Of a stretch of DNA of 64,000 nucleotides, positions 21,546 through 61,946 are shown piece after piece. The position numbers and the translations under genes are program-made. How positions within the stretch are numbered: position 1 is the first letter of the stretch; each line of letters opens with the position of its first letter. The notes below the pieces were generated by a model. That model did not search any database, was not told the DNA's origin, and saw only the letters and a list, made by a program, of their open reading frames with translations. Origin of the DNA: Paucisalibacillus globulus (GTDB lineage Bacteria > Bacillota > Bacilli > Bacillales > Amphibacillaceae); the NCBI RefSeq assembly GCF_900184735.1, contig NZ_LT855395.1, positions 124,001 through 188,000 of the forward strand, in the 5' to 3' direction.

Positions 21546-21964
21546 GGGAGTATGATTTTGGTTATTGGGCACATGGGGACTTGGAGTGGGAGCAAGGTCT
21601 TGGTGTTTGGGTACATGATATCGAGGAGTGGGAGCATACTCTTGGTCAGTGGGCACATGATGTCGAGGAGTGGGAGCATACTCTTGGATAGTGGGCACAT
21701 GATGTCGAGGAATGGGTCCATGCTCTTGGTCAATGGGCCATGATGACTCGGAATGGGTCCATGCTCTTGGTGTTTGGGCACATGATGACGAGGAGTGGGA
21801 GCATACTCTTAGTCAGTGAGCACATGATGACACGGAATGGGTGCATGCTCTTGGTCAATGGGCTCATGGGGATCAGGAGCGGGTGCATGCTCTCGATTAG
21901 TGGGTACATAGTGATTCAATATGGGGCCATGTTTTTGATTAACAGGCACATATGCTCACTTAAT
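21546..21964 (+). repeat. Array 1: 20 modules of 21 bp, GGGCACATG class
   Basis: Each module is a 9-bp core (consensus GGGNNCATG, most often GGGCACATG or GGGAGCATA) plus a 12-bp spacer. Two spacer types alternate, ATGTCGAGGAGT-like and CTCTTGGTCAGT-like, so the higher-order unit is 42 bp. Only one indel occurs (one module is 20 nt). The array lies between convergent genes, downstream of the c-like gene's terminator. Open frames on both strands across it are a by-product of a period divisible by three. Confidence 0.9.
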
Positions 21965-22061
21965 TTACAAATATAAAAAATGGCCCACCCCATTTAAACG
22001 ATTTCCTTATGAGATGCGCCATATATCGTAAAGTAAAGTAATATCACATTCACATGATTAT

Positions 22062-22712
22062 CTATTTATCAGGTGGCAAGCTATAAATTACCTGCCCTTC
22101 TTCATCTAAAAATTCAAGTTTGGGATTATCATGTTGATCGACTGCTAAACGGATTCGTTGCCTTCCCTTGCTATCTGACAATTTTACGGATACTTCTCCA
22201 GAAGAGGATTTTTCTATCTTCATTCGTTCGAATCCAATTTCACCTTTTTCATATAATTCTTTCATATATGTTTGTTTTTCCGGACTATTTTCCGCGAAGA
22301 GCATATGTTCATGTTCTTTAACAAATTCGGTAAGGAATTTTTTTGGCCTATCACTAAAAACTAACGCATAGGTCCTTTCACCATTTCTATCATACATCCC
22401 AAGATCCACTACATCATTTTGCAGATATGGGTCAAAAGCAAGAAGTATATTTTGTTCATAATTATTTTCATCTTCCTTTTGACTTGAAAATCGTAATCCT
22501 CCACATTCAATTCCCTCATCATTATAAAAAACTATTCCTGCACCTGGATTTCCATCTCTCGGAATATCTTTATCTTCTAGCAGCTTTGGTGTTGGAAATA
22601 ATTCTGTATTGGAGATAGCCATTCGAATGGTCCCATCATTTTCAATGATATTAATACGCTTTACATTTACCTCTTCAAAATCCTGAATATTATTTTTTTC
22701 CTTCAATCTCAT
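22062..22712 (-). CDS. Conserved hypothetical protein, beta-rich
   Basis: A 216-residue soluble protein with no signal peptide or membrane segment. It opens with a strand pattern VKRINIIENDGTIRMAIS and contains AGIVFYNDEGIECGGLRFS and a late VKLSDSKGRQRIRLAVD, suggesting repeated beta hairpins. I have a memory of similar uncharacterised proteins in unrelated bacteria but cannot name a function. It is a single gene with array 1 beyond its 3' end. Confidence 0.65.
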   Translation of the reverse strand: MRLKEKNNIQDFEEVNVKRINIIENDGTIRMAISNTELFPTPKLLEDKDIPRDGNPGAGIVFYNDEGIECGGLRFSSQKEDENNYEQNILLAFDPYLQNDVVDLGMYDRNGERTYALVFSDRPKKFLTEFVKEHEHMLFAENSPEKQTYMKELYEKGEIGFERMKIEKSSSGEVSVKLSDSKGRQRIRLAVDQHDNPKLEFLDEEGQVIYSLPPDK

Positions 22713-22911
22713 ACCTCCTATTAAATAGAATTTCTACGGAGAAAATATTCAAGCTTTCCTCTCATTAGTAGAATTGTCATTCCTTGCTAATACCTTAACA
22801 TAATTTTCAGATAATTATAACAGGAGTTTCATTTTCCAGCACAAATAGTATTCATATCAGTACGTGTGGGTACAGAGATTAAACAGATTATATAATCCTA
22901 ATATAAAAATA

Positions 22912-22952
22912 AAATCGCACTGTTCATTCAACTATGAACTACAGTGCGATTT
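22912..22952 (-). terminator. Terminator of the 23032 gene
   Basis: A 12-bp perfect stem (AAATCGCACTGT / ACAGTGCGATTT) is followed on the minus strand by TTATTTTTAT. It is the only notable element in the gap 22713-23031. Confidence 0.85.
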
Positions 22953-23031
22953 AGTGTATGGAAAATAGGATGTCTTCCTTTAAGCGACCCCAACTATGCA
23001 TAATGCATCTTCATATTTGGGTAATTTCATA

Positions 23032-23454
23032 TTATTTATTATAAAGTTCTTTATAAGCAATTACTTTCAATGCTGTTATTTCTTCTTCTGTTAATTTACC
23101 TGCCACTTCTTGAAGGATCTCTTCCTTGGAAACTTGGCCTTCTTTCACCCTGGATTGTAAATCCTTAATTCCCGAAATACCAAATTTCTTCACAATCACT
23201 TTCGTTGCTTCTTCTTTTGTGGTGAATGGCAATGTGCTTTCATCAACTGATGCTGCACCATTAATAAAAGCCTGCAGTTCCGGGTCATTTTCAATTGCTC
23301 TTTTGATGTTTTCCATTTCCCCACTATTCTCTAGTTCGGTTACCAGAGCTTCCATTATCTTATCCGAGGCAATTTTGGTTCCAAAATGGTAAACCCCGTA
23401 GCCAAGACCACCTAGAAGAATGATAATGATAAGAAGCCATTTTATAAATTTCAT
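23032..23454 (-). CDS. Hypothetical protein with one N-terminal membrane anchor
   Basis: 140 residues: a membrane helix (KWLLIIIILLGGLGYGVYHF) then a helical soluble region rich in Glu and Lys. The pattern TKEEATKVIVKKFG followed by GQVSKEEILQEV suggests short helical repeats. GAGAGGTGAG precedes the ATG, and TATAAT lies just upstream on the minus strand. No function is recognised. Array 2 fills the divergent gap to the next gene. Confidence 0.65.
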   Translation of the reverse strand: MKFIKWLLIIIILLGGLGYGVYHFGTKIASDKIMEALVTELENSGEMENIKRAIENDPELQAFINGAASVDESTLPFTTKEEATKVIVKKFGISGIKDLQSRVKEGQVSKEEILQEVAGKLTEEEITALKVIAYKELYNK

Positions 23455-23531
23455 ATAACACTCTCACCTCTCGAGGACTATTATACCTTTTTTTAAAATG
23501 GATGGTGTTTTATTTTTTGGGAAACGGGTTT

Positions 23532-23783
23532 GGGTTTATGATTTAGAGTTTGAGTTAGATGATTGTTTAGAGCGGGGACATTGTTCTGCTTTTTGGGTAC
23601 AAGATTGCTATGATTGGGTACATGGTTACTTGGCTCGGGCACATCCTTCTGGTCCCAGGGCACATGGTTTCCCAATTCGGGCGCATTCTCCTGCTCCATG
23701 GGCACATGGTTACTCAACTCAGGGACATCTTCATACTCCAAAGGCACAAGCTCCCCCATCTCAGGAACATCTTCCCTACCCCA
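23532..23783 (+). repeat. Array 2: 12 modules of 21 bp, GGGCACATG class
   Basis: Cores read GGGTACATG, GGGCACATC, GGGCACATG, GGGCGCATT and the like, at exactly 21-bp steps with no indel. Spacers are less homogenised than in array 3. The array sits between divergent genes (23454 minus and 23870 plus), so it occupies what should be promoter DNA. A minus-strand frame of 107 codons is uninterrupted across it (Pro at every seventh residue), but its ATG lacks a properly spaced ribosome binding site. Confidence 0.88.
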
Positions 23784-23869
23784 AACATCCCCCCACAACA
23801 CAAAAACTTCCATCTCCCCCCAAACCCTACTATAATGGAAAAGACAAAATAGTTCGGGGTTGATTAATT

Positions 23870-24613
23870 TTGGAAAAACATGAGCAGATAACGAAACTTT
23901 GCTTGTTAACAGGGAAGATTATGTTGGAGAGTAGTGCGGAGACGTATCGGGTGGAGGATACGATGAATCGGATAGCGCGTGCTTTTGGGGTGGAGAATCC
24001 GCAGAGTTATGCTACTCCGACGGGGATTTACTTTTCTATTGATCAGGCGGAGCCGGCGAATATGATGCGGATTATGAAACGGACGACGGATTTGAATAAG
24101 ATTGCAGAGGTTAATAGTGTTTCACGGAGGATTGCTGCTGGGGAGCTTGATATGAAGGAAGCTTATCATGCCTTGAAGCAATTGGAAACATTAAAAGTTC
24201 TGTATTCTAACAAGCTCATGGTCTTCATAGCGGCGCTTGCGAGTGGCTGTTTTACCATCATGTTTGGTGGGATTTGGGCTGATTTTCTCCCATCTGTAGT
24301 AGCTGGTGGAATTGGATTTATCGGGTTTTTGTGGTTTGATAAGTTGGTGGAGATTCGCTTCATTTCTGAGTTTGTGGCATCTTTCATTATCGGCCTTCTT
24401 GCTGTGTTCTTTATCCATACTGGCTTAGGGGTCGAGTTAGATAAGATTATCATTGGTGCAGTGATGCCTCTTGTACCGGGATTACATATTACGAATGCAG
24501 TCCGCGACTTATTGGCGGGGCATTTGGTTGCTGGTTTATCAAAGGGTGTTGAAGCATTGCTGACGGCATCTGCGATTGGCGCTGGGATTGCGGTGGTGTT
24601 GGCGTTTGTATAA
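23870..24613 (+). CDS. Threonine/serine exporter, ThrE N-terminal-type subunit (YjjP-like)
   Basis: 247 residues with a cytoplasmic N-terminal domain containing SSAETYRVEDTMNRI, the family hallmark, then five membrane helices. ThrE-type export needs a second, four-helix subunit, which here is encoded 5 kb away at 29630. Translation probably starts at a TTG with a weak ribosome binding site; a good -10 (TATAAT, about 23832) lies upstream within the flank of array 2. Substrate is inferred from the family. Confidence 0.85.
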   Translation: MEKHEQITKLCLLTGKIMLESSAETYRVEDTMNRIARAFGVENPQSYATPTGIYFSIDQAEPANMMRIMKRTTDLNKIAEVNSVSRRIAAGELDMKEAYHALKQLETLKVLYSNKLMVFIAALASGCFTIMFGGIWADFLPSVVAGGIGFIGFLWFDKLVEIRFISEFVASFIIGLLAVFFIHTGLGVELDKIIIGAVMPLVPGLHITNAVRDLLAGHLVAGLSKGVEALLTASAIGAGIAVVLAFV

Positions 24614-24623
24614 GGTTATGTTC

Positions 24624-24661
24624 AAGATTCGTCATGTTCGGCCATGACGGGTCTTTTTTTC
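24624..24661 (+). terminator. Terminator after the ThrE N-type gene
   Basis: A stem with CGTCATG pairing with CATGACG around a TTCGGC loop is extended by GA/TC pairs and ends in a run of T residues. Confidence 0.85.
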
Positions 24662-24711
24662 TTATCGGCCATTTTGTTCGTTTAGCCGATAAGAATAGAA
24701 GACTTATAACC

Positions 24712-25308
24712 TCAATCGTCAGCCGGGATACAGAATTCACGGATCAACTGTGCTTTTATTTCTTCAATTGGGAACTTATGGGGATAGGTAGATATCATTA
24801 ACATGACTCCTTGTAGTGCAGATGAAAAGTAAAGTGATCGTTTTCGTGGCTCTTCTACACCAATCCTTTCGAAGATTTCACACTGAAACTCAAACTGTCT
24901 GGCGCTTTCTTCAATTAGCATCTTACTGTATTTAATCAATTCTTCATCCGCTTCTGGCTGTGTCTGTAAGTGGAGATAGAAACGAAAAACTTCCGGATGT
25001 TGATAAACGCCATTAATTGCACCTTCCACTATAAATTTTAGTTGCTCTGTTGGTTTCCGAATTGCCTTGGCCCCATCCATTACATGAATTACTTCTGCAA
25101 TTCTTGCTTCAACCATCTGTGCAAGAAGTGCTTCTTTACCTTTGTAATAATTGTAGAGTAGTCCCTTCGATATACCTGCCGATTCAGCTATATCATGAAT
25201 AGAAGTTGCATGATACCCCTGTTTGATAAACAACTCCATAGCAGTATTGTGAATTTTTTGTTTGGCCAACTCGCGAATACGTTCATATTCTTCCGGTGAT
25301 CTAGGCAT
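24712..25308 (-). CDS. TetR family transcriptional repressor
   Basis: 198 residues. The N-terminal HTH (ELFIKQGYHATSIHDIAESAGISKGLLYNYYKGKEALLAQM, about 22-62) is typical TetR. The all-helical C-terminal half would bind a small ligand. The gene lies 6 nt downstream of the hydrolase gene, so the two form an operon. Autorepression through the palindrome at 26101-26118 is likely. Confidence 0.9.
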   Translation of the reverse strand: MPRSPEEYERIRELAKQKIHNTAMELFIKQGYHATSIHDIAESAGISKGLLYNYYKGKEALLAQMVEARIAEVIHVMDGAKAIRKPTEQLKFIVEGAINGVYQHPEVFRFYLHLQTQPEADEELIKYSKMLIEESARQFEFQCEIFERIGVEEPRKRSLYFSSALQGVMLMISTYPHKFPIEEIKAQLIREFCIPADD

Positions 25309-25314
25309 GTTAGT

Positions 25315-26064
25315 TCATTCCTTTATGAAATTAGTAATATGACGATACAGTTCGTCTGGGTGGGTAAGGGTCATCATATGATCGGCCCCAGGGATTTCTA
25401 CAATTCTAGCATTAGAGTGTTCACGGTAATAATCCGCCACTCGGAGATTATCGGGTAACTCCTCCGTACCAATCATGAATAATGTCTTAGCAGACAATTC
25501 TCCCAGTCTTTCAGAAGCAGGAGGCTGTGGCCAAACCAATTCAAACACCGGCCATGCAAAGGACCGTTTGATATGGTGACGCAGCATCTCTTCTGCCAGT
25601 TCCCGATGTGGGCTAGATTGGACAACACGATACGATGGAGCACTTTGGGATATCTCAATCATTTTTTCTACATCAGGAGCTGCTGTGCCAACCTTATTGA
25701 TATATTCCTTAAACGCCTGTGAATAATCAAAGCCAGTTAACGCCGGAGCTAATAAAATCAGATGGGATACTTTTTCCGGGTATTCTAGTGCGAAATCTGT
25801 GGCAATCTGTCCGCCCATGGAATGACCAACGATTGCGGCTTTAGAAATCTCGAGGTGTTCAAGTAGTTCATTTAAGTCCTCCACACAGTTGACATCCTTT
25901 GTAGGATTAGGCGACTTTCCCGCACCACGTCCATCGTAAGCAATGACCTTATAGTCGTTAGCTAAAAGGGGCTCTACGAATGTCCAGTCACGGAGATCGG
26001 CACCACCACTGTGAATAAGAATGACAGGATACCCTTTACCATGAACCTCGTAATACAATTCCAT
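25315..26064 (-). CDS. Alpha/beta-hydrolase
   Basis: 249 residues. HSGG near residue 18-21 forms the oxyanion loop, the nucleophile elbow is GHSMGG (Ser82), and the terminal His lies in GADHMMTLTHPD. A cap domain separates strands 6 and 7. The substrate is unknown; its regulator is encoded immediately downstream, suggesting that a hydrophobic ester or lactone induces the pair. Confidence 0.85.
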   Translation of the reverse strand: MELYYEVHGKGYPVILIHSGGADLRDWTFVEPLLANDYKVIAYDGRGAGKSPNPTKDVNCVEDLNELLEHLEISKAAIVGHSMGGQIATDFALEYPEKVSHLILLAPALTGFDYSQAFKEYINKVGTAAPDVEKMIEISQSAPSYRVVQSSPHRELAEEMLRHHIKRSFAWPVFELVWPQPPASERLGELSAKTLFMIGTEELPDNLRVADYYREHSNARIVEIPGADHMMTLTHPDELYRHITNFIKE

Positions 26065-26100
26065 TACAATCCCTCCATAAATCGTTTAGTTTTTTTATTG

Positions 26101-26118
26101 AATGAACGTTTAGTCATT
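26101..26118. promoter_or_regulatory. Candidate TetR operator
   Basis: AATGAACGTTTAGTCATT has outer inverted halves AATGA/TCATT and lies 37 nt upstream of the hydrolase start; a second CGTTTAG half-site occurs near 26083. Spacing and form fit TetR-family operators. Assignment is by inference. Confidence 0.45.
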
Positions 26119-26331
26119 ATAAAATTATTATATTTTCCCAATCAGGAATAAGAACCTTTTTTCGAGTATGTCATACTGTTTTTTTCGTCCATGTCCAATG
26201 GTAAAATAGTATTTGGGGGAACTTTTGGATTTCTCATGTTGATGTTAGCATTTGTGTTCGGTGGAAGTTAAACATTTCCCCATTTTCCTCCGATAGTGAT
26301 AATGAGCGAGCAGTTAACGGAGTGTGAGAGA

Positions 26332-27033
26332 ATGAACAAGATATGGAAAAGCATCATGATGGTGACATTACTATTTCTAGCGGCTTGTAATACTGAGGAA
26401 ACTAAAGAAATACCAAAGACTCAGCCTGAGGTGAAACAACTTCCCACTAGGCAGTCCACTTCTATCGAATCATTAACTAAATTATATTTGCCTGGACATG
26501 TCTCTGAGAAACGGGTAACACCAATTACCCATGCTGTTATTCATTTCACTAGTAATGCCCAAGAAAAACCAGAGGACCCATATCAAATTCTAGATACATA
26601 CGATATTTTTAATCAATACGGTGTTTCTTCCCATTATGTTATTGACCGGTCTGGAAAACTATATCAGTTTGTAACTGAGAACCGTATTGCCTATCATGCT
26701 GGAAAAGGTAGTTTAGCAAACTATCCTACCTATCATAATAAATTAAACGCCTATTCCATTGGTATTGAGTTACTAGCAATCGGAACCAAAGAGGAAATGG
26801 TTTCGATGATGACGGAAGAAGACTATGATAATATTGACCCCATCCATATCGGGTATACGAATGAGCAATATGAAACCTTGAGAGATTTATTACTCGATAT
26901 TTCCGCATTCTATGGGACGGTGCCACTGGATCGTGAGCATATCATAGGGCATGATGAATATGCACCAGAGCGAAAGACAGACCCTGGTTCCCTGTTTGAT
27001 TGGGAACATTTGATGAATCTATTAGATGAATAG
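26332..27033 (+). CDS. Lipoprotein N-acetylmuramoyl-L-alanine amidase (Amidase_2)
   Basis: I take the ATG at 26332, 7 nt after GGAGTG, giving 234 residues. A lipoprotein signal ends in LFLAAC. The Amidase_2 fold follows: AVIHFTS (zinc His), YHAGKGS, NAYSIGIELLA, and the C-terminal REHIIGHDEYAPERKTDPGSLFDW with the second zinc His and the Lys-x-Asp-Pro motif. It would cut the MurNAc-L-Ala amide bond in peptidoglycan at the outer face of the membrane. Confidence 0.9.
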   Translation: MNKIWKSIMMVTLLFLAACNTEETKEIPKTQPEVKQLPTRQSTSIESLTKLYLPGHVSEKRVTPITHAVIHFTSNAQEKPEDPYQILDTYDIFNQYGVSSHYVIDRSGKLYQFVTENRIAYHAGKGSLANYPTYHNKLNAYSIGIELLAIGTKEEMVSMMTEEDYDNIDPIHIGYTNEQYETLRDLLLDISAFYGTVPLDREHIIGHDEYAPERKTDPGSLFDWEHLMNLLDE

Positions 27034-27040
27034 GACGGAA

Positions 27041-27082
27041 AGGCTTCTCAAAAGTTTGGTAAACTAGTGAGAAGCTTTTTTT
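27041..27082 (+). terminator. Terminator of the amidase gene
   Basis: GCTTCTCA (27043-27050) pairs with TGAGAAGC (27068-27075), followed by seven T residues. Confidence 0.85.
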
Positions 27083-27109
27083 ATTCTTTGGTAAAACCAC
27101 CCTTTTTCG

Positions 27110-27150
27110 ACTATAAATAAAGCCTGTTCTCTAATTCCGAAAACAGGCCA
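27110..27150 (-). terminator. Terminator of the GGDEF-EAL gene
   Basis: GCCTGTT (27122-27128) pairs with AACAGGC (27142-27148); on the minus strand it is followed by TTTATTTAT. Confidence 0.7.
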
Positions 27151-27153
27151 ACG

Positions 27154-29349: not shown

Positions 29350-29567
29350 GATAGCGCTCCTTTTACTAAAATAGGCAATCGTACTCTTTCTACTCTAAAT
29401 TATAGTATAAAGGACCCCTATTTCAAACATATTTCTTAATATTCTACAGTTATTTCGCTTTTCGAAGTAACAAAATACGATAAATATTTCCAAAATTCCT
29501 TGTTTACTGGATGATATTTCCATAATTCACGAACATTGTTGAAATTTAAGTGTGATTATGTCATGAA

Positions 29568-29596
29568 TTGCAGGCATGATTTTATTGGTTTACAAT
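29568..29596 (+). promoter_or_regulatory. Sigma-A promoter of the ThrE_2 gene
   Basis: TTGCAG (29568-29573), a 17-nt spacer and TACAAT (29591-29596). It gives the exporter's second subunit its own transcript. Confidence 0.75.
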
Positions 29597-29629
29597 AGGT
29601 AGCATGTATTGGAATCGGAGGGTAATGGA

Positions 29630-30120: not shown

Positions 30121-30750
30121 GGGCGCATGGTGCTGGGGTTTGGGCATATGGTGCTGGGGTTTGGGCACATGGTTGGGGTTTTTGGGAGCATGCTTGATCA
30201 TGTTGGGTGCATGATTTGAGGTTCCGGGTAGATACTCGTCCGTGTTGGGCACATGCTCAGTGGTCTTGGGTACATCTTCAGCCATTTTGGGCACATGCTC
30301 GGAGGTCTCGGGTGCATCTTCGGCCATTTTGGGCGCATGCTCAGAGGTCTTGGGTACATCTTCGGCCACGTTGGGCGCATGCTCAGTGGTCTTGGGTACA
30401 TCTTCGGCCATGTTGGGCACATGCTCAGTGGTCTTGGGTACATTCTCGGCCACGCTGGGCGCATGCTCAGGGGTCTTGGGTACATTCTCGGCCATGTTGG
30501 GCACATGCTCGGAGGTCTCAGGTGCATCTTCGGCTATATTGGGTGCATGCTCAGAGGTCTTGGGTACATCTTCGGCCATGTTGGGCACATGCTAGGAGGT
30601 TCCGGGTACATCCTCGGCCATGTTGGGCGCATGCTCAGGGGTCTTGGGTACATCTTCGGCCATATTGGGCACATGCTCGGAAATCTTGGGTACATCCTCG
30701 ACCACTTTAGGCGCATGTCCGGAAATCTCTGGCACATGCTCTAAGTGACC
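30121..30750 (+). repeat. Array 3: 30 modules of 21 bp, GGGCACATG class
   Basis: Thirty consecutive modules with no indel over 630 bp. Cores GGGCACATG or GGGCGCATG alternate with GGGTACATC; the spacers alternate between CTCAGTGGTCTT-like and TTCGGCCATGTT-like, giving a 42-bp higher-order unit. It is clearly GC-richer than the flanks. On the minus strand one frame reads His/Asp-Val/Ala-Pro every seven codons, starts at an ATG (about 30819) with AAAGGG upstream and a membrane-helix-like head, but is broken by a TAG at 30592. It lies between convergent genes. Confidence 0.92.
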
Positions 30751-33165: not shown

Positions 33166-33585
33166 TATGTGACCATTATTTGTGAGCTTGTGACTTAAAA
33201 TTCAAAACTTGTGCCCAAACCGTAAGTGCTTGTGACTTATAATCCAAAACTTGTGCCCAAATCGTAAGTGCTTGTGACTTATAATCAAAACCTTGTGCCC
33301 AAAACGTAAGTGCTTGTGACTTATAATCAAAACCATGCGCCCAAACCGTAAGTGCTTGTGACTTATAATCAAAACCTTGTGCCCAAATCGTAAGTGCTTG
33401 TGACTTATAATCAAAAACATGCGCCCATCCAGTGTGAGCATGTGACCACTCCACGCGAATATGGGACCAATATTACATAGCTTGTACCCATATTCCCAAA
33501 CCATGTTACCTTGCCACCAATACATCTGACCATTCACTAAAATCATCCTACCAAAACCACCAAACATCTGCCCCAACACCAACAA
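33166..33585 (-). repeat. Array 4: 20 modules of 21 bp, CTTGTGCCC class
   Basis: On the plus strand the cores are CTTGTGACT and CTTGTGCCC (later CATGCGCCC, CATCTGACC), each followed by 12 bp; spacers TATAATCAAAAC and AAAACGTAAGTG alternate. All 20 modules are exactly 21 nt. Read on the minus strand the core is GGGCACAAG, going away from the fabZ terminator. Cores decay towards the fabZ side while the step is kept. The minus frame starting near 33612 gets its Phe-rich head from the terminator T tract and is not a credible gene. Confidence 0.92.
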
Positions 33586-38316: not shown

Positions 38317-38820
38317 GGGCTCATGGTTGGGTGCTGTGGGCGCATGCTTTGGTGATCCGGGCTCATCGTTGAGTGACGCGGGCCCATGGTTGAATGTTGC
38401 AGGCACATGCTCGGGTGGCGCGGGCACATGGTACGGTGCTGCGGGCGCATCCTCCAGAATTCAGGGTACATGTTATATTGCAATGGTAACATGTTTTAGT
38501 TAATAGGGAGCATATTGACAAATTACAGTAAGTTGCTCTGAACTTCCGGGCACATGCTTTTCATAACTGGTTGCATGTTTTTCATTAACAAGTCCATGCT
38601 TACTACACTTAGCAGATGCTAAAAAGCAACTCCAACATTAAAAATAACATGATGGTCTATATTTTGTTCGGTTGGGTTCATGTAACTAATTGATCGGCAG
38701 ATGTTTTATGAGAAAGGGTACATACCGGATGTTTTATCTACCATGTCCAATTAATTCAAGTACATACTTTATGTTTATGGGAGCTTGGTTCATAACTTTA
38801 GTCACATACTCCAATACAAA
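38317..38820 (+). repeat. Array 5: 24 modules of 21 bp, GGGCTCATG class, strongly eroded
   Basis: The first nine modules have clear cores (GGGCTCATG, GGGCGCATG, GGGCACATG). Further right many cores are degraded or absent, yet recognisable cores reappear exactly in phase (38506, 38548, 38569, then 38674, 38716), so 504 bp keep one 21-bp register. A G/T-rich shoulder (38235-38316) separates it from mbl. It lies between the divergent mbl and NERD genes and reaches to within 76 nt of the NERD start. Confidence 0.85.
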
Positions 38821-39921: not shown

Positions 39922-39976
39922 ATGTTGAATATCATTAATCAGTGGTTGGACTATTGAGGCATATGGTGCTTGATTT

Positions 39977-40543
39977 GGGCTCATAGTTTATGTTTGTGGG
40001 AGCATGAAGCCTTGGCTTGGGCACATGCTTCAAGTTTACGGGCGCATGGTCCCGAGGCATGGGCGCATGGTTCAGGATTACAGGCACATGCTTCTTGGGG
40101 GCGGGGGCATGCTGTGAGTTTACGGGTGCATGCTCCTGGGGCTTGGGCGTATGATCCAAGTTTTCAGGCTCATGTTCTCGAGGCTTGGGCGCATGATCTA
40201 AGTTTACGGGCTCATGCTCTCGAGGCTTGGGTGCATGATCTAAGTTTACGGGCTCATGCTCTCAAGGCTTGGGCGCATGACCCAAGTTTACGGGCTCATG
40301 CTCTCGGGGCTTGGGCGCATGTTCCAAGTTTACGGGTTCATGTTATCAAGGCTTGGGTGCATGATCCAAGTTTACCGGTTCATGTTCTCGAGGCTTGGGC
40401 GCATGCTCTAAGTTTAAGGGCACATGATTCCGGAGCTCGGGTGCATGTTCCAAGTTTTCAGGTGCATCCCGCAGGAGCTCGGGCGCTTGTTCCAAGTTTT
40501 CAGGCCCATCATCCCAGGACTCGGGCAAATGCTCCCACATAAC
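39977..40543 (+). repeat. Array 6: 27 modules of 21 bp, GGGCGCATG class
   Basis: Twenty-seven modules with no indel over 567 bp. Cores GGGCGCATG alternate with GGGCTCATG; spacers ATCCAAGTTTAC-like and CTCTCGAGGCTT-like alternate. GC-rich compared with flanks. It lies between the convergent NERD and spoIIID genes. Minus-strand frames read His-Ala-Pro every seven codons but are closed by a TGA at 40346. Confidence 0.92.
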
Positions 40544-41729: not shown

Positions 41730-42794
41730 TTATAAACCTAAATTTTTAATTGCATTCATCGGTAATCTGCTAAAGAAGTAGTCACTTCTTTCCACAAACA
41801 TTCGGCATGATTCCGATAGTAAGTTTTTATCCTTCTTGGCAAGTCCCATATAATACATCTTAAATGGGCTTTCGGTATAGATATCCTCTAATAACTCAAT
41901 TGCTTTCTCATTATTTCCTTTTGCGATTTCGAGATGTGCTTGTTCACTTATATCACTCGACTCCACCCCATTTGGCCTACCGAAGTGAGCAGCAAAAAAT
42001 GGAATGGATTTATCTTTAATAGAGTGGATAAATTTATTCAAATTAAACTTTTCAGCGATTTTTAGCGCCTCTTTTAAATGATACATGCCTTGATAGTACG
42101 TATCAAAAGAATAGGTTAATGCTAGGTTCATATGTAAACTCACTTTTGTGGTCGGACTGTTTGTTTGGTTTAGTGCCCTAAAGGCATATTTTCTAGCCAT
42201 GATTAACTCATTACGTGTCCAATAATAAATGAATAATTTTTGGTAAGTCCTTAAATTAAAGCTGGAAAGAATAAAATTATCTTGAATCGGTTCAAATAAT
42301 TCCTGTTGCTTTTCTAAAAAGTTGCCAAATTGACCAAAATCCATTTGGTTAAAATAGGTGTCCACGATAACAAGTTCAATTAAACATTTTAATTCTGGAT
42401 CAGTAGGAATCATTTCTTGTAAACGTGTTCGCATCTCTCCTACCGAATATTTCCGATCACGGCGGTCTAAAATAATTTGATATACCTCAGCCCATAGCTG
42501 GTTGGATGGATGGTTCGATAGTTGGTTTTTCGTGATGAGGATTCTAAGATCATCAAAAAAACCATTCATATATAAAAACTCCATACCCTTTTTCTGAATC
42601 TCATTAGAGGATGATTGTAAGCAGTATTTACGCGTTAAATCAACCACTTCTTCCTCTTCATGTTCTTGGGATAGTAGTAAGATAATCTGACCAATGGATA
42701 ACTCGTCATTTTCCGAAATAGGCGTCAACGTCTCAGGTATTATACTGATACTTCCATAACTCATTTTTTGGGGACCATTCCTTTCAATATACAT
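41730..42794 (-). CDS. AimR-like peptide receptor (RRNPP/TPR family) lacking an obvious HTH
   Basis: 354 residues of helical TPR-like repeats. The YCLQ-containing helix (about residue 57-60), the middle FNLRTYQKLFIYYW-like helix pairs and the end (KAIELLEDIYTESPFKMYYMGLAKKDK then FFSRLPMNAIKNLGL) resemble phage SPbeta AimR in order and pattern. AimR has an N-terminal DNA-binding HTH; here only about 45-55 residues precede the YC helix and they carry no HTH pattern. The ATG at 42794 lacks a good ribosome binding site; one at 42764 has AAAGGA 14 nt upstream. No phage genes surround it. Function by protein-protein contact, as in Rap proteins, is possible. Confidence 0.75.
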   Translation of the reverse strand: MYIERNGPQKMSYGSISIIPETLTPISENDELSIGQIILLLSQEHEEEEVVDLTRKYCLQSSSNEIQKKGMEFLYMNGFFDDLRILITKNQLSNHPSNQLWAEVYQIILDRRDRKYSVGEMRTRLQEMIPTDPELKCLIELVIVDTYFNQMDFGQFGNFLEKQQELFEPIQDNFILSSFNLRTYQKLFIYYWTRNELIMARKYAFRALNQTNSPTTKVSLHMNLALTYSFDTYYQGMYHLKEALKIAEKFNLNKFIHSIKDKSIPFFAAHFGRPNGVESSDISEQAHLEIAKGNNEKAIELLEDIYTESPFKMYYMGLAKKDKNLLSESCRMFVERSDYFFSRLPMNAIKNLGL

Positions 42795-44199: not shown

Positions 44200-44745
44200 G
44201 ATGTGACCGTTTGGGCAGATCTTGTGACTGTTAGTTTAGAACATGGGACCAAAATGAGAAGCCATGTGACTATCTGGGGGGATCTTGTGACCGATTTTGG
44301 CAACCTTGTGACTGTCAAACTAGAGCATGTGACCAAATTTTGCATCCTTATGACCACTAGGTACGAGCTTGTGACCAAATCTTGCATCCTTATGACCACT
44401 AGGTACGAGCTTGTGACCAAATCTTGCATCCTTATGACCACTAGGTACGAGCTTGTGACCAATTCCAGCGACCTTGTGACTCCTAAACTAGAGCTTGGGA
44501 CCAAATCTTGCAGCCTTATGACCACTAGGTACGAGCTTGTGACTACTTCCAGCAACCTTGTGTCTTCAATACTAGAGCTTGGGACCAAAACATGAAACCT
44601 TGTTACCTCCTGGCACGGGCTTCTGCCCAATTCCAGCAACCATGTCCCCCTAATGCGAATACATGGACCCTAAACAAAATACCTTGTGACCAAAAGGCAC
44701 AAGCTTCTGCCCAATCTCAGCTACCTTGTCCCCCTTCTCTAGCCC
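44200..44745 (-). repeat. Array 7: 26 modules of 21 bp, CTTGTGACC class
   Basis: Twenty-six modules with no indel. Plus-strand cores CTTGTGACC, CTTATGACC, CTTGGGACC and CATGTGACC carry spacers such as AAATCTTGCATC and ACTAGGTACGAG; the middle has three near-identical 42-bp units. It fills the gap between spoIIQ and spoIID, with a G/T-rich left shoulder (44050-44199) and a C/A-rich right shoulder reaching the spoIID terminator. Confidence 0.92.
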
Positions 44746-44784: not shown

Positions 44785-44814
44785 AAAAAAACCCCAGAGC
44801 CTAAGCTCCAGGGG
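44785..44814 (-). terminator. spoIID terminator
   Basis: On the minus strand CCCCTGGAGC pairs with GCTCTGGGG, followed by seven T residues. Confidence 0.88.
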
Positions 44815-54253: not shown

Positions 54254-54254
54254 A

Positions 54255-55187: not shown

Positions 55188-55284
55188 TGCCTCCAACTCC
55201 TGTATTGATTTCTCTTCCTGAAGTACTAGTAGAAAAGCTTCTACTTGGAAATATGGTATGAGCGTTTTCTTTTAGTTATGAGAT

Positions 55285-56088
55285 TTATTGGGTTAGATAT
55301 TGATAGATTTCAAGGCCAATTCTCCCAATGATTTCAGGTGACTCTAAATTGTTTAAGCCTTTAGTTAAAACTGACGCGATAAGGGTTCTTTTACCGACAT
55401 AGAAAACACCTACGTCATGTCGAATCCCGGAAACATTTCCGGTTTTATGGGCGATTTCCCATTGCTTTAAGGTGCCAATTACTGGCTCGTCTTGCTCTGG
55501 GATTTTCGCTGGTAATGAATTACTTATTTGTTGTTTCTTTAAAATATCTATCATTTGCTCACAAGCATAAACGGAAATTATTTTTCCAGTAGCGATTTTT
55601 TTGAGCATGTCAGTCATTTCATGTGCAGTAATCTCATTAAACCCTTTTCGGTCCACTTCTTGTGTCATCATTTTGTGAAAAAATTTGCTCTTTACTAAGC
55701 CAATATCTTTCATCGTCTGTTGGATTGCTTCAGTTCCTACTAAATCAATAAGCATATTTGTCGCCGTATTGTCGCTTTGAATAATCATTAGCGTCATTAA
55801 ATCGGTAATGGAAAGTTGTATACCGGGAGTCATATGCTGCAGCACACCACTTCCCCCAACCATATCTTCCCGTTTCACTGTAAGACGATTACTAAGTGAA
55901 ATTTCATTACGATGATTAGCAGCAAATACAGCAATCATGATTGGTATTTTAATAACACTCGCAGAGTAAAATAGCTCATGGCCATTTAATTCCCAGCTTT
56001 CACCAGTACCTGAGTCTTGTAAGGATATTCCCCAGGTTCCCCCTGCATCTTCTGTTATTTGAGTAATTCTTTCTGTCAGTTCTTTCAT
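55285..56088 (-). CDS. Class A beta-lactamase-like serine hydrolase inside the dpp operon
   Basis: 267 residues with the complete penicillin-recognising triad: Ser44-x-x-Lys47 (SVIK), Ser105-Asp-Asn and Lys-Thr-Gly in IAHKTGNVSG. The omega-loop deacylating Glu of true class A enzymes is not evident (EVDRKGFNEIT instead). No signal peptide, so it acts in the cytoplasm. In a murein-peptide operon a role in trimming D-amino-acid peptides is reasonable. B. subtilis dpp lacks this gene. Confidence 0.75.
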   Translation of the reverse strand: MKELTERITQITEDAGGTWGISLQDSGTGESWELNGHELFYSASVIKIPIMIAVFAANHRNEISLSNRLTVKREDMVGGSGVLQHMTPGIQLSITDLMTLMIIQSDNTATNMLIDLVGTEAIQQTMKDIGLVKSKFFHKMMTQEVDRKGFNEITAHEMTDMLKKIATGKIISVYACEQMIDILKKQQISNSLPAKIPEQDEPVIGTLKQWEIAHKTGNVSGIRHDVGVFYVGKRTLIASVLTKGLNNLESPEIIGRIGLEIYQYLTQ

Positions 56089-56109
56089 ATTGTTTCTCCT
56101 ATTGGTTGG

Positions 56110-56934
56110 TTATGCATATTTCGTGTCATAGGCAAGCTCAATCATAACGAGGAGTGCTCGATATGCTTCTAAGATATCTTTCGCCTGATACTGAACAATC
56201 GTCGTTCCAGGAATGATCTCGGTTCCTGGCATCATATGTGCAAGTTCTGCCGCACCATAGTTTACAAATTCTACTTTGATAATCGGGTTTTCTGGTGGAG
56301 TCAACGGCTTCACATGATGCCTGTTTTCAATTGCTTGTTTAACTTTATCCTGCAGTAATTCCCCTGCCTTTTTAGGCGTTAAGCTTTTCGTTGTTGATCT
56401 AGAAACTGCTTCTTTCACAATGGCAGTGGTGACGTTTGGAATCAGAGCTTCGGCTTCCTTTGCCGTCTCATCATCACCTGAAACAAGTAGCAGTGGAACC
56501 CCATGATATCCAGCCACCATTGCGTTCATCCCTATCTCCCCAACCTGCATATCATTCACATAAAAACTCCGGACCATATGTATCATCGAATGAGACATCA
56601 CACCAGGCATCCCAGCTCGCGCGTGGTAACCTATAAACATCGCACCAGAAAAGGTTTCATCGATTCCATGAACCATCGAGTATGTTTTAACCCCACCCGT
56701 TATGAGCTGTGCATCTGGATGAAGCTCATCGATTAAAATATTATTCATCTTCATATGACTATCATTCACCAAAACTTCACTACAGCCAGATTGAAAGGCT
56801 GCATCCACAACGTAATTCGTTTCATTTGTCATGATTTTACGCGCGCGCTCATAATTATGCATGGAAGCGCTAACAAATGTGTAGTCTGGCAAACCGGTTA
56901 TCCCTTCCATATCGACAGATAGATAGAGTTTCAT
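56110..56934 (-). CDS. dppA: D-aminopeptidase DppA
   Basis: 274 residues from the ATG 5 nt after AAAGGAGAC. The zinc site residues lie in LSVDMEGITG, VNDSHMKM and the HSMIHMVRSF region. It removes N-terminal D-Ala from D-Ala-D-Ala-type peptides. It is the first gene of dppABCDE. Confidence 0.93.
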   Translation of the reverse strand: MKLYLSVDMEGITGLPDYTFVSASMHNYERARKIMTNETNYVVDAAFQSGCSEVLVNDSHMKMNNILIDELHPDAQLITGGVKTYSMVHGIDETFSGAMFIGYHARAGMPGVMSHSMIHMVRSFYVNDMQVGEIGMNAMVAGYHGVPLLLVSGDDETAKEAEALIPNVTTAIVKEAVSRSTTKSLTPKKAGELLQDKVKQAIENRHHVKPLTPPENPIIKVEFVNYGAAELAHMMPGTEIIPGTTIVQYQAKDILEAYRALLVMIELAYDTKYA

Positions 56935-57023
56935 AGCATGTCTCCTTTGGTGTTTTATACTTATTAAATTATATGTTTGGATTTCTTTTACATGAGTGGA
57001 TGTTTGTATCATTCTGTGAAGTG

Positions 57024-57065
57024 AGACAAAGGTCTGATAACCCGAGCTTTTCTGAGGTTTTGTCT
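57024..57065 (-). other. Inverted repeat in the dppA leader
   Basis: AGACAAA (57024-57030) and TTTGTCT (57059-57065) bracket 28 nt. They fall inside the expected 5' untranslated region of dppA (transcription start near 57121). No T run follows, so it is a leader hairpin of unknown role. Confidence 0.35.
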
Positions 57066-57127
57066 ATGTGAAATGGTGACAACGCTCGACTTTCTTCCCC
57101 ATTAATTTCTGTGTTTATTTCGTTAAC

Positions 57128-57156
57128 ATTGTACCTGTTATTCCATCTAATTGCAA
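57128..57156 (-). promoter_or_regulatory. Sigma-A promoter of the dpp-ykf operon
   Basis: On the minus strand TTGCAA (57151-57156), a 17-nt spacer and TACAAT (57128-57133). A leader of about 185 nt follows before dppA. In B. subtilis this operon is CodY-controlled; no clear AATTTTCWGAAAATT box was found here. Confidence 0.75.
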
Positions 57157-57287
57157 GATAATTTATACAATTTAATATAGTTGGAATTGGGGGAATATAG
57201 GTGAAATGTGGGGTTTGGGTGGGTGTTTCCATAAATTGGATGGGTTGTTTGGTTTGGGTATGGTCTGTTTGTGAGTGTATGTAATTG

Positions 57288-58115
57288 TATGTGACTGTTT
57301 GGTTTGGACTTGTACCCATTCCTGAGGAGCTTGTGACCGTTTGGGTGAAGCTTGTTCCCTTTGCTGGGGAGCTTGTGACCGTTTGGATGAAGCTTGTTCC
57401 CTTTGCTGGGGAGCTTGTGACCATTTGGGTGAAGCTTGCGACCATTTGGGTGAAGCTTGTTCCCTTTGCCGGGGAGCTTGTGACCATTTGGGTGAAGCTT
57501 GTTCCCTCTGCTGGGGAGCTTGTGACCGTTTGGGTGAAGCTTGTTCCCTCTGCTGGGGAGCTTGTGACCGTTTGGGTGAAGCTTATGACCTTTACTGGGG
57601 AGCTTGTGACCGTTTGGATGAAGCTTGTTCCCTTTGCTGGGGAGCTTGTGACCATTTGGGTGAAGCTTGTTCCCTTTGCTGGGGAGCTTGTACCCGTTTG
57701 GTTAGAACTGTTACCTTTGCCGGGGAGCTTGTGACCGTTTGGATGAAGCTTGTTACCTTTGCCGGGGAGCTTGTGACCGTTTGGATGAAGCTTGTTCCCT
57801 TTGCCGGGGAGCTTGTACCCGTTTGGTTAGAACTTGTTCCCATTTTGGAGTAACATGTGACCGTTAATATAAAACTTATACCCAAGTTGAGAAAACTTGT
57901 GCCTTAAAGTTAATAGAATGTTCCCATCACAAAAAATATGAGACCATTTTACTTAAGAATGTGACCAATCTTACAGACCATGTTCCCAATAATCACAACC
58001 ATGTGCCCTAATCACCACGGCATCTTCCCATTCAAGCCAAGTTTCTGTCCAATTACACCTGACAATGCGCCCGAACGAAATAGCACTTGTTCCATATATT
58101 CTATATAATGTGACC
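57288..58115 (-). repeat. Array 8: about 39 modules of 21 bp, CTTGTGACC class (largest)
   Basis: Plus-strand cores CTTGTGACC and CTTGTTCCC alternate with spacers GTTTGGGTGAAG and TTTGCTGGGGAG, giving a 42-bp unit repeated about ten times with few changes. Single-base deletions occur at about 57708 and 57936 and single-base insertions near 58063 and 58085; the rest is in step. From 57854 the modules are degenerate. It lies between dppA and the murA terminator; the left shoulder (57180-57287) is G/T-rich. Confidence 0.92.
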
Positions 58116-58118
58116 AAA

Positions 58119-58148
58119 ATAAAAAAGTGGAGCACATAAGCACTCCAC
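58119..58148 (-). terminator. murA terminator
   Basis: GTGGAGCAC/GCACTCCAC stem; on the minus strand a TTTTTTATTTT tract follows and runs directly into the last modules of array 8. Confidence 0.8.
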
Positions 58149-58173
58149 CTATCAATCTATTACATTATTCGAC

Positions 58174-59484
58174 TTAAGAAAGTTCAGCAACATAGTTTAC
58201 TTTATATGGGTTTACAAGATCTCCGTTTTCATCAACGCGTTCGATATCTGCACCTAGGCTTGCTAATTTTCCTGCAAAGTCAACATAGCCACGATCTAAA
58301 TGTTTTAGTTCCGTAACTCTTGTTAATCCATCAGCACGAAGTCCAGCAAGAATTAATGCAGCTGCTGCACGTAAGTCTGTTGCAGCTACTTCTGCACCTT
58401 GAAGTTCAGATGGTCCGTCAATGATGACACTACGGCCTTCGATTTTCATTTTTGCATTCATGCGGCGGAATTCTTCCACATGCATGAATCGATTCTCAAA
58501 TACTGTTTCTGTGATCATACTAGTTCCACGAGCACATAACATTAATGCCATGATTTGTGATTGCATATCTGTTGGAAATCCTGGATGTGGTAATGTCTTA
58601 ACGTCAGTTGCTTTTAACACATCTGGTCCGATTACACGAATACCATTTCCTTCTTCCATAATGGAAACTCCCATTTCCTCTAATTTTGCAATTAGAGGTC
58701 TTAAATGCTCACTTACAGCATTTTCAATGAGTATATTTCCACCAGTTATCGCTGCAGCAATCATGAATGTTCCTGCTTCAATACGGTCTGGGATAATGGA
58801 ATGCACGGCACCATGAAGTGTTTCGACACCTTCAATACGGATTGTTTCCGTACCAGCACCAATCACTTTTCCACCCATTTTATTGATGAAGTTAGCTAAA
58901 TCTACTATTTCAGGTTCTTTCGCTGCATTTTCGATAATAGTTTTTCCTTCTGCAAGTGCAGCTGCCATCATAATATTCTCAGTAGCTCCTACACTAGGAA
59001 CATCTAAATAAATCTTTGCACCTTGTAATCTACCATCTACTGTTGCTTCAACAAATCCATTACCGACATGAACTTTTGCACCCATTGCCTCGAAGCCTTT
59101 TAGGTGTAAATCTATTGGACGTGAACCGATTGCACATCCTCCTGGCATTGCAACATTTGCATGACCATAACGAGCAAGTAACGGACCTAAAACAAGAACG
59201 GACGCACGCATTTTTCGAACATACTCAAATGGCGCTTCCGTTTTTAATTGCTTTGAAGCATCAACAACAACTGTATTATTATTAAACTCAACATCTGCAT
59301 TCATATTTCTAATTACTTCATTAATCGTATAAACATCGGCTAGAGCTGGGACCTCATGAATAACGCTATTTCCCTCACTAGCAAGAATACTGGCAGCAAT
59401 TACGGGTAGTACGGCGTTCTTCGCGCCTTCTACATAGACATTACCATTCAATTGCTGTCCGCCTCTTACAATGATTTTATCCAT
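58174..59484 (-). CDS. murA: UDP-N-acetylglucosamine 1-carboxyvinyltransferase
   Basis: 436 residues. First committed step of peptidoglycan synthesis: transfers enolpyruvate from PEP to UDP-GlcNAc. Lys22-Asn23 in [10 protein letters not shown] and the fosfomycin-target Cys117 in [19 protein letters not shown] are present, with two inside-out EPSP-synthase-like domains. Sited after ywmB as in B. subtilis, where the product is MurAA. Confidence 0.95.
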
Positions 59485-59519
59485 ATTTCAAATTCTCCTT
59501 CAGATCCATTTTCCTTATA

Positions 59520-60239
59520 TTAATATTCATTTATTAGGATAGGTGTTCCAATCATGTATTGGACATCACCACTAGCAAGGGTTCTTGTTACAATCTGAAC
59601 ATTCACTGGCCTATCCTGAATGGTAATTTTTTGACCCCACGCGGAGGTATACCCATATACTATTTCTATATTTCTTGTCGAATTTATTGTGTCTTTTTGT
59701 ACATTTATTTGTCGCAAATTAAGCTTTTTAGTAAAACTTTGTATAACATAATCATTTTCAATTATAGCACTAGTTCTCGTAGACATACAAGAGAATATTT
59801 TAACGTCTTTTGTAAAATATTTGTTAGTTAAATTGGACTGTAAATTCCTATAGTTAGAAGACACATTTCCATCCCATAAACTTCCTTTTATGGACACCAC
59901 AAGTTCCGCTTGATACTGCTTTTCTTTCGGGAAAATCACACTATATATTACGTTTATATTACCCGCTTTATGAGCGTCTCTAACTAAATAAATAATACTG
60001 TTTTCGTTCTCTTCTTTTGTGACCGTATGACTATTACTTAACTCCTCTAAAATACCTTCTAATTGCGACGCATCCATATTTTCTTTCAACGTTACTTCCC
60101 AGCTCTCAATTCCAAGGTCGTTCTCTAATATTATATTTGCTATATCAATAATTTCATATTGTTCTTGTTCCAGTTCCATTGCAAAAACGGTATTTGATAT
60201 AAATAAGATCATAATACTCATTGCTAAAATTCTTTTCAT
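59520..60239 (-). CDS. ywmB: YwmB family protein (DUF1779)
   Basis: 239 residues from the ATG 7 nt after GGGGGAT. A signal peptide (KRILAMSIMILFISNTVFA) precedes a mixed alpha/beta region. Position between ywzB and murA and size match B. subtilis ywmB. The family is annotated as TATA-box-binding-like by fold only; it is extracytoplasmic and of unknown function. Confidence 0.85.
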   Translation of the reverse strand: MKRILAMSIMILFISNTVFAMELEQEQYEIIDIANIILENDLGIESWEVTLKENMDASQLEGILEELSNSHTVTKEENENSIIYLVRDAHKAGNINVIYSVIFPKEKQYQAELVVSIKGSLWDGNVSSNYRNLQSNLTNKYFTKDVKIFSCMSTRTSAIIENDYVIQSFTKKLNLRQINVQKDTINSTRNIEIVYGYTSAWGQKITIQDRPVNVQIVTRTLASGDVQYMIGTPILINEY

Positions 60240-60340
60240 AGTAAAATCCCCCTTGTTCAACTTATCAACAGTATGAACAAGAGAGATTCATAACATACAT
60301 CTTTTTTAATAGTTTAGTAGATTCTATATGGACTTTCCTT

Positions 60341-60571
60341 CTATAGAAGGAATTTAAGATCTTGAGACCATTGTAAGAACTCAAGGAAGAAGCGACTTAC
60401 CCCTGTTCCTATCACAATGGTTAGAAAAAGTAATAAAATCCTAGCTTCAGTTCCCCTACCTTTTCGAATTAATGGCTCGAAATTTATGGTTTGCATTAAC
60501 CGCCATGTAATATAGATAAAAAGAATATGGGAAATGATGCTCATCATTGCAACTTGTCCAATTGATAACAT
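60341..60571 (-). CDS. ywzB: DUF1146 family membrane protein YwzB
   Basis: 76 residues with two membrane helices and a cytoplasmic loop (RKGRGTEARI). AAGGTGG precedes the ATG. Always found downstream of atpC in Bacillaceae. Function unknown. Confidence 0.9.
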   Translation of the reverse strand: MLSIGQVAMMSIISHILFIYITWRLMQTINFEPLIRKGRGTEARILLLFLTIVIGTGVSRFFLEFLQWSQDLKFLL

Positions 60572-60944
60572 TTTGAACCACCTTAATAATAATTATTTCC
60601 ACTATAAGACTGCCATTTAATGACTACAATGTCAAATGGAATAAGGAATATAAGGCAGTTCGACACTGGAAATGGTTATATTTTATATTTCGCATTTCCC
60701 GGGAAATATCGACAAGGATGGAGAAGTTTGTTTGTTTATCAGTTGGAAATGATTTTACAATAGTTATGTTTAGACAGAAGATGATGAAAAGCTGGGTTAT
60801 TTTGATTGAAATTAAGTGATATATAATATATTGCTGTAAATTCTATAGGTTTATTTGTGAAGTTTTTATATATTTTGAGATTTATTGTGTTTAAGGAGGG
60901 GGAATTGTTGTTATGAGGTAATTGTGATGAGTATGGGGATTGAA
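60572..60944. other. Gap upstream of ywzB
   Basis: AT-rich, becoming G/T-rich towards array 9. It should contain the ywzB-ywmB promoter. No gene or terminator is visible. Confidence 0.5.
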
Positions 60945-61211
60945 TTTGTTACTGTTAATTCGGAACTTGGGACCTTTTCTACTGAGTTTGTGCCCTATTT
61001 GATGCAGCTTGCGACCGTGGGAACTGTCCTTGTTACCATTAGCTCGAATCTTGGGACCTTTTCTACTGAGCATTTGCCCTTTTTGATTGAGCTTGCGACC
61101 GTAGCAGCTGTCCTTGTTACCATTAACTCAAATCTTGGGACCTTCTCTACTGAGCTTGTGCCCTATTTGATGCAGCTTGCGACCGTGGGAACTGTCCTTG
61201 TTACCATTAAC
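60945..61211 (-). repeat. Array 9, left part: 13 modules of 21 bp with an 84-bp super-unit
   Basis: Plus-strand cores cycle CTTGGGACC, CTTGTGCCC, CTTGCGACC, CTTGTTACC with spacers TTTTCTACTGAG, TATTTGATGCAG, GTGGGAACTGTC, ATTAGCTCGAAT, so four modules make an 84-bp unit present three times. The thirteenth module is cut after ATTAAC by the IS256-like element. Removing the insertion and one CCATTAAC copy restores an exact 21-nt module with the right-hand part. Confidence 0.92.
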
Positions 61212-61278
61212 GGTGATGTCAATAAGTCTGTGTAAGATAATTGCTCCTCACCTGATTAGAAAGCGAAGGAGGTTTTAT

Positions 61279-61371
61279 ATGGAGTGGCGGGCATGATAAC
61301 CTTATTGGTTTAGCCAATATCTTTCGATATCTGGCTTCTTGGCTAAAGAGTCATGCCCGCAGAAGCTCCAT
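61279..61371. repeat. Long interrupted palindrome inside the IS remnant
   Basis: Nested arms ATGGAG/CTCCAT, GCGGGCATGA/TCATGCCCGC, TTTAGCCAA/TTGGCTAAA and GATAT around TTTC form one long stem. It lies between the transposase stop and the left IS end. An AAGGAGG-ATG start (61267-61281) overlaps the base of the left arm. No T run follows on either strand. Confidence 0.75.
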
Positions 61372-61412
61372 GTCAAACCGACGTAAAAAAGTAAGAATCC
61401 TCATATAATTAT

Positions 61413-61622
61413 TTAATCATTATATCTAGCTTCAAACATCTTTTTTAGTTCACTTTTAACTGAACTAAATTCATTTATAACTCTTTTACTCCATCTCTCA
61501 TTGAAGTCCTGGGATACGAGGTATACAATCTTTTCAACAGCTTTCTCGTTTGGTAGGCTATTCATAGTCTTTGTTCGTTTTTTAACCTCTTTAATAGTGC
61601 GTTCTATGGTGTTAGTTGATAT
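61413..61622 (-). pseudogene. 3' remnant of an IS256-family transposase
   Basis: Seventy codons encode the C-terminal end of a Mutator-type transposase: STNTIERTIKEVKKRTK, which contains the conserved N-x-x-E-R of the last catalytic helix, then LPNEKAVEKIVYLV and a basic tail. The remaining start ATG at 61644 is out of frame with it, so the internal deletion also produced a frameshift. Confidence 0.85.
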
Positions 61623-61743
61623 TATTAGTTATACTATTAGACATAGGTAAGGTACTTCCTTTCTGGTTTTTGTGGTTATTAACTAGAGGATTTACCTTAC
61701 CTTTTTTATTTATACTTATTTACACAAACTATTGTACGTCATC

Positions 61744-61946
61744 CCATTAACTCGAATCTTGGGACCTTTTCTACTGAACTTGTGCCCTTTTTGATTGAGC
61801 TTGCGACCGTATTAGCTGTCCTTGTTACCATTAACTCAAATCTTGTGACCCCTATTCTATTTCATGAGACCGTTAATTCTAACCTTGTTCCCAACCTTTA
61901 AAACCATGTGACCAAAACAGCAAACCTTGTGCCCTTACCCGTCCCG
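61744..61946 (-). repeat. Array 9, right part: 9 further modules of 21 bp
   Basis: Continues the 84-bp cycle (CTTGGGACC, CTTGTGCCC, CTTGCGACC, CTTGTTACC) after the IS and then becomes degenerate (CATGAGACC, CTTGTTCCC, CATGTGACC). All steps are 21 nt. An A/C-rich shoulder leads to the atpC terminator. Confidence 0.9.

Follow-up and report, generated by a model that had tools for sequence, protein, structure and literature searches.

Intergenic arrays of a 21-bp-phased core in Paucisalibacillus globulus: candidate protein-binding sites expanded into satellites

A survey of 176 Bacillus genomes reported repeats of 20 to 21 nucleotides (nt; 781 cases) or 51 to 53 nt (1,886 cases) that are mostly noncoding and species specific, with characteristic short sequences (Subirana and Messeguer 2021; PMC8161180). 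The part of that paper available to us assigns them no function; its authors point out that 20 to 21 nt equals two turns of the helix and propose either a protein that polymerizes on DNA or small RNAs. The 52-nt satellites of Bacillus coagulans have been reported to be transcribed (PMC8625621; PMC8161180). A literature search for follow-up of the 20- to 21- and 52-nt repeats returned, judging from listings, no paper on function. Here we analyze a 64,000-nt stretch of Paucisalibacillus globulus (contig NZ_LT855395.1, positions 124,001 to 188,000; hereafter the window, in whose coordinates positions are given), in which nine gaps between genes hold arrays of modules, each made of a 9-bp core and a 12-bp spacer. 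The preliminary description of this DNA recognized no described family in the arrays, a statement that has to be withdrawn: as far as the accessible text allows the comparison, they belong to the already published kind of 20- to 21-nt Bacillus repeats, and it is the picture in the nearest relative that is unusual.

The correspondence with the published repeats, taken from the same accessible text, covers the size of 20 to 21 nt with at least four repeats (here, almost all steps are 21 bp, and the homogenized unit spans two steps), the noncoding nature (here, stops occur in every frame and codon rhythm is absent), the species-specific short word (here, of 61 genomes, 1, that of the window, had the exact pattern of three phased cores), and the coexistence of several same-length families per genome (here, spacers are 27% and cores 70% identical between arrays). 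Beyond what that text reports are a 42-bp duplicated unit with unrelated neighboring spacers, an unrepeated series of cores in a relative that still keeps the phase, a strand bias relative to genes, and the occupation of one orthologous gap by different words in sister species. We propose, giving the idea an even chance, that the arrays are phased sites for a putative DNA-binding protein and that their growth into satellites is secondary.

REP/BIME elements with RAYT transposases are dispersed and intergenic, and many of them lie after genes. The present arrays share these properties but are strictly phased at 21 bp and lack a hairpin signal (no average excess folding; see below). A relationship of the REP/RAYT type was rejected: Y1_Tnp matches are present in 10 of the 11 genomes of the genus (26 listed), and of these, 14 of the 15 genes examined had no tandem array within the fetched 18 to 20 kb, the remaining one having arrays about 3 kb or more away. 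Eukaryotic minisatellites combine a common short core with private spacers and local homogenization, whereas core and phase occur here without homogenization, too, in the relative described below. TIGR and CRISPR arrays have a regular repeat/spacer layout; the spacers here, in contrast, are duplicated inside the array and are not diverse. TIGR-Tas was set aside as a candidate, with a Nop-domain match in none of the 11 genus genomes and in 4 of 14 control genomes.

The window lies on contig C12 of a 3.92-Mb genome (G000), from which 14 further stretches were fetched, one of them without an array. Modules were delineated by a strict core-chain search and by a permissive walk with a core profile (score of at least 2 bits); array boundaries are soft and shift with the score threshold. 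The strict search returned 26 arrays in the window and fetched stretches and none in the reversed sequences, the ten chains of the window containing 147 strict cores. The permissive walk resolved 206 modules in these ten chains (nine gaps), with 188 of 196 steps measuring exactly 21 bp, in keeping with the approximately 220 modules at a 21-bp step first described; over all 26 arrays, it resolved 489 modules and 449 of 463 exact steps. The two halves of array 9 are treated as two arrays in the strict-search, orientation, and gap-type counts. Autocorrelation in 42-base windows (34 or more matches; lags 3 to 69) confined the signal to lags 21 (23), 41 (7), 42 (1,194), and 63 (49), and Tandem Repeats Finder, after removal of lower-scoring overlapping rows, called a period of 21, 42, or 84 in nine of nine gaps. 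A genome-wide search of G000 with the three-core pattern (at most three mismatches) gave 484 matches, compared to 0 for a control pattern. Since 317 of the 484 fall within the window and fetched stretches, the 26 arrays extrapolate to a genome total of about 40. Arrays 2 to 7 and 9 had been described as free of indels, which does not hold for array 6, with one 20-bp step, or for array 9, which an insertion of about 530 bp divides in two; the other off-phase steps are one of 41 bp in array 1 and steps of 22, 43, 20, and 41 bp in array 8.

The core consensus is GG[GT]CACA[AT]G, with positions 2 and 7 almost invariant, and the core profile walk bears out the view that the two core classes first distinguished are variants of one core. 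For neighboring modules, spacer identity is 0.31; at lags of two, three, and four modules, it is 0.60, 0.32, and 0.63, respectively, and core identity over these lags is 0.77 to 0.85. The duplicated unit is a 42-bp module pair whose two spacers are mutually unrelated; because spacers are alike only at even lags, the 21-bp step differs from the length of what was duplicated. Spacers are therefore homogenized within arrays, as the preliminary description held, with a period of 42 bp and not 21 bp. Even in module pairs of one array with only 0 to 4 of 9 spacer positions matching, the core remains about 77% identical. Homologous modules at a distance of 42 bp (207 pairs) never differ at core positions 2 and 7, differ at positions 1, 3, 6, 8, and 9 in 5 to 10% of pairs, and differ at positions 12 to 21 in 12 to 21%. 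Spacer identity between arrays (0.27, with cores at 0.70) is near chance. Spacers are not strictly private to each array, as first described: a 154-bp segment of array 8 (57288 to 58115) recurs at 90% identity on contig C16 of G000 next to unrelated flanks; copying can thus seed arrays. This array-8-like segment (G000:C16:57986-58140; L114) lies directly after a terminator-like hairpin and abuts the end of an opposite-strand open reading frame (ORF) of 1,228 amino acids (aa). Three further array pairs align weakly (68 to 73% over 119 to 222 columns).

The comparison with related genomes was most informative in G007, a near relative of G000 that shares 97% of the residues encoded by the EPSP-synthase-family gene beside array 8, which we take to be murA. 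All nine window gaps were tried; three lacked a flank in the G007 stretch (those of arrays 5 and 6 among them), and five of the six comparable orthologous gaps keep cores: 4, 6, 7, 3, and 7 of them in the positions of arrays 2, 3, 4, 7, and 8, respectively. In these five gaps, 20 of 22 steps are exactly 21 bp and the strand is that of G000, and the chain length in each was reached by 0 of 300 dinucleotide shuffles. Within the series, spacer identity is 0.30 and core identity is 0.67 (66 pairs, the cores being picked by score). A scan of 160 kb of G007 for chains of at least four cores found seven, six of them without repeated spacers, compared to none in the reversed control; the same scan gave five versus none in G010 and no chain in G003, G005, G006, and G009. 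Thus, place, strand, and phase are kept in G007 though the repeat is absent, and the cores and their 21-bp phase survive there with unrelated spacers, a pattern that may be expected of a row of binding sites and that neutral decay of satellites can hardly explain. Repetition alone cannot tell slippage from function, and these unrepeated series help to separate the two.

Neutral minisatellites, made and homogenized by slippage and unequal exchange, with copies seeding further loci and the core reflecting shared descent only, would account for the homogenization at 42 bp, for the array segment copied between unrelated flanks, and for the variation of array presence and size between species. They sit poorly with a core and phase that outlast random spacers in both G000 and the orthologous gaps of G007 and with core positions that, for the most part, change less than the spacer in duplicated modules. 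We already disfavor this explanation and regard it as unlikely.

The arrays sit in the gaps between genes, with gaps defined from ORF calls of at least 80 aa. A terminator-like hairpin lies between the same-strand upstream gene and the array in 10 of 16 gaps; 2 more of the total of 18, those of the L114 array and of the first part of array 9, were set aside, and the count has no shuffle control. A separate scan added the hairpin at array 7 to these. In codirectional gaps of G000, G001, and G008 taken together, 26 arrays are on the strand of the genes and 3 are on the opposite strand, all 3 in G000. With G010 included, 18 arrays are in convergent gaps and 8 are in divergent gaps. Among the convergent arrays, 7 run with and 11 run against the local majority gene strand; hence, replication direction fails to explain the strand bias, and we discarded it as a cause. 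We also dropped the impression that the array lies nearer the same-strand gene in convergent gaps, which held for six of six in G000 and for only 11 of 18 over the four species. In the one stretch scanned for promoter-like sites, there was no excess (41, compared to a shuffle mean of 52.8).

A strand that follows the genes in three species also invites an explanation at the RNA level, with the arrays transcribed downstream of genes as an RNA-protein platform, sponge, or processing signal, much as transcription has been reported for the B. coagulans satellites mentioned above. However, 24 array segments fold unremarkably on average (mean z of −0.34 on one strand and −0.46 on the other, 2 and 3 of the segments, respectively, being below −2), and an Rfam scan of the window returned no family at gathering scores. 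The terminator-like hairpins precede the array, eight arrays are located upstream of both flanking genes, in divergent gaps, and steps of about two or five helix turns suit DNA, not RNA. This places an RNA-level role slightly behind neutral minisatellites in our estimation. More improbable still is an element of topology or termination like enterobacterial BIMEs, acting as a second polymerase barrier or as a gyrase-type site where positive supercoils arise. The position after terminator-like hairpins, the preponderance of convergent over divergent gaps, and the strand polarity would fit it, but gyrase is conserved and the words differ between species, the hairpin signal is absent, and divergent gaps hold arrays, too.

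Translation of the arrays can be assessed over 10,392 array bases, in which the six frames contain 66 to 233 stops each, against a random expectation of about 162. When substitutions are sorted by position modulo 3, their rates (0.169, 0.142, and 0.146) show no codon rhythm. The arrays are noncoding, as first claimed. A translated seven-residue repeat protein, suggested by the equality of 21 bp with seven codons and by one frame of the C-rich strand with 66 stops, is rejected as extremely improbable, given that this best frame is fully open in only 7 of 26 arrays and that steps near 20 or 20.5 bp in relatives are no codon multiple.

On the reading that we prefer, each array would be a series of sites for a sequence-specific DNA-binding protein, which would sit on the degenerate core every 21 bp. 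Because the sites are 21 bp apart, the bound molecules would lie on one helix face, able to touch along the intergenic DNA, and the series would often stand directly after the terminator of a gene. Between species, the protein and the word that it recognizes would drift together. Slippage or recombination that duplicates a pair of sites (42 bp) would make a series grow into satellites; without duplication, or after decay of the repeat, the sites would persist phased but unrepeated, as in G007. We infer that the complex insulates or organizes the DNA between transcription units. The preliminary description had proposed a phased protein-binding or DNA-structuring element. The noncoding, phased part of this proposal is supported because cores keep the 21-bp register where spacers have become unrelated and because some members of the genus step by about 20 or 20.5 bp; binding by a protein, and its species specificity, we likewise infer.

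Several observations weigh against this interpretation. No DNA-binding protein for the core was found, no co-occurrence search having been made. Core positions 4 and 5 are as variable as the spacer (20% and 25%), and the module walk scores cores, so that cores at array ends are favored. The sixth comparable gap of G007 (array 9) has a single core and no chain, the chain scan gave 16 chains in G001 with 1 in the reversed control, and comparable gaps of the other seven genus members contain 0 to 2 cores of the window type, so that persistence without repeats has been demonstrated in the nearest relative alone. At the murA site, no array was seen in G001, G003, G006, and G010; with 4 of 11 members lacking it, the array is dispensable there. 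As for orientation, arrays of other dialects (i.e., built on other words) show no bias in small samples, 8 being with and 7 against the strand of the genes (2 to 0 for the second word of G001 and 6 to 7 for the remainder; counted with orientation assumed from the ATC strand and with 6 locus-edge arrays and 2 arrays inside ORFs set aside). Base skew may contribute to the bias, since the sense core is G rich in each of the three species with the bias.

The variation of the word is best seen 3' of murA, where G000, G008, G009, G005, G002, and G004 have arrays with words that differ between them (the step being about 52 bp in G004 and about 20 to 21 bp in the other five; G002 and G004 are partly masked), and G007 has its unrepeated series. 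The three-core pattern of the window is found with at most three mismatches in 7 of the 11 genus genomes. The stretches of ten genus members contain more words, mostly with steps of 20 to 21 or 51 to 52 bp or multiples thereof and a few with other periods, such as 27, 36, and 54 bp. In the wider family, arrays are present at 5 of 28 newly fetched murA sites, and 14 of 40 stretches (39 of 20 kb and one of 16 kb) hold a tandem repeat of >55 bp; of the 19 such repeats, 17 have, on our own reading, a period near a multiple of 20 to 21 or 51 to 53.

These data lead us to suggest, a little more tentatively than the proposal for the arrays themselves, that the published 20- to 21-nt satellites are the expanded state of a wider and largely unseen element of phased, degenerate 9-bp sites, spaced by two helix turns and maintained by selection at fixed intergenic positions and on fixed strands, the word of its protein varying in the manner of a dialect. 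The unexpanded state would escape repeat finders, and a phased-core search could reveal the same element in genomes without a visible repeat. The 21-bp-phased core series also offers a defined DNA bait for finding the protein. If a fast-changing DNA-binding protein is indeed involved, many Bacillaceae would have in it an organizer or insulator of their intergenic DNA that has gone unrecognized.

Arrays with a period of 51 to 52 bp, about five helix turns and equal in size to the second class of published repeats, occur in other genera and in G003 (L217, L219, L253, L256, and L187). In a motif search across species on arrays free of N, ATC or GAT is present in 9 of 15 species words and may be a shared ancestral anchor; we dropped a common anchor as a claim, several of the motifs resting on one or two arrays. 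A contig scan of other genomes returned 63 stretches, none titled Bacillaceae (near relatives may be left out) and many in long open frames. Eleven of the 63 (L043, L049, L055, L061, L063, L067, L087, L088, L089, L096, and L102) come from one Bacteroidetes metagenome-assembled genome; their repeats of 21, 42, or 63 bp have a core of the CATGTTCCC or CTTGTTCCC type, and the spacers are mostly alike. These are possibly an independent case in another phylum, or coding. A plasmid search with array 8, the sole array tried, gave no match with the low-complexity filter on.

Within the window, array 1 (21546 to 21952, plus strand; 19 modules, GGGCACATG-type core) has an ATP-synthase-C-like ORF on one side and a convergent ORF on the other. 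Array 2 (23532 to 23771, plus; 12 modules by the permissive walk, with 5 strict cores at 23595 to 23708) occupies a divergent gap upstream of a ThrE-type gene, and array 3 (30121 to 30738, plus; 30 modules) occupies a convergent gap after a ThrE_2 gene. Array 4 (33166 to 33573, minus; 20 modules) has cores of the GGTCACAAG/GGGCACAAG type. A NERD-domain gene separates array 5 (38317 to 38577, plus; 12 modules), in the divergent gap that it forms with an MreB/Mbl gene, from array 6 (39957 to 40531, plus; 27 modules), in the convergent gap after it. The remaining arrays are on the minus strand. Array 7 (44200 to 44733; 26 modules) is flanked by SpoIID upstream and by a peptidase M23 gene on its other side, and its terminator-like hairpin (44792 to 44813, minus), between SpoIID and the array, matches the consensus and was missed by the simpler hairpin search. 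Both hairpin searches detected the one after murA (58125 to 58150, minus), which stands immediately ahead of array 8 (38 modules; flanked by murA upstream and by a peptidase M55 gene on its other side), and the one after the ATP synthase epsilon gene (62004 to 62037, minus), before the second part of array 9. That second part (61758 to 61934; 9 modules) is 93% identical over 107 bp to the first (60945 to 61205; 13 modules). The insertion between them (61211 to 61744) has CCATTAAC at both sides; most of it is found again on contig C6, in two pieces, and part of it at another place on C12, and it is possibly an IS256-type remnant. The window also encodes an AimR-like regulator (41730 to 42794; PF22871, 264 bits), for which there was no tblastn match at 1e-5 among 50,697 phage records. 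Together, the SpoIID, MreB/Mbl, AimR-like, murA, ATP synthase, and ThrE genes suggest a host that is a Bacillus in the broad sense.

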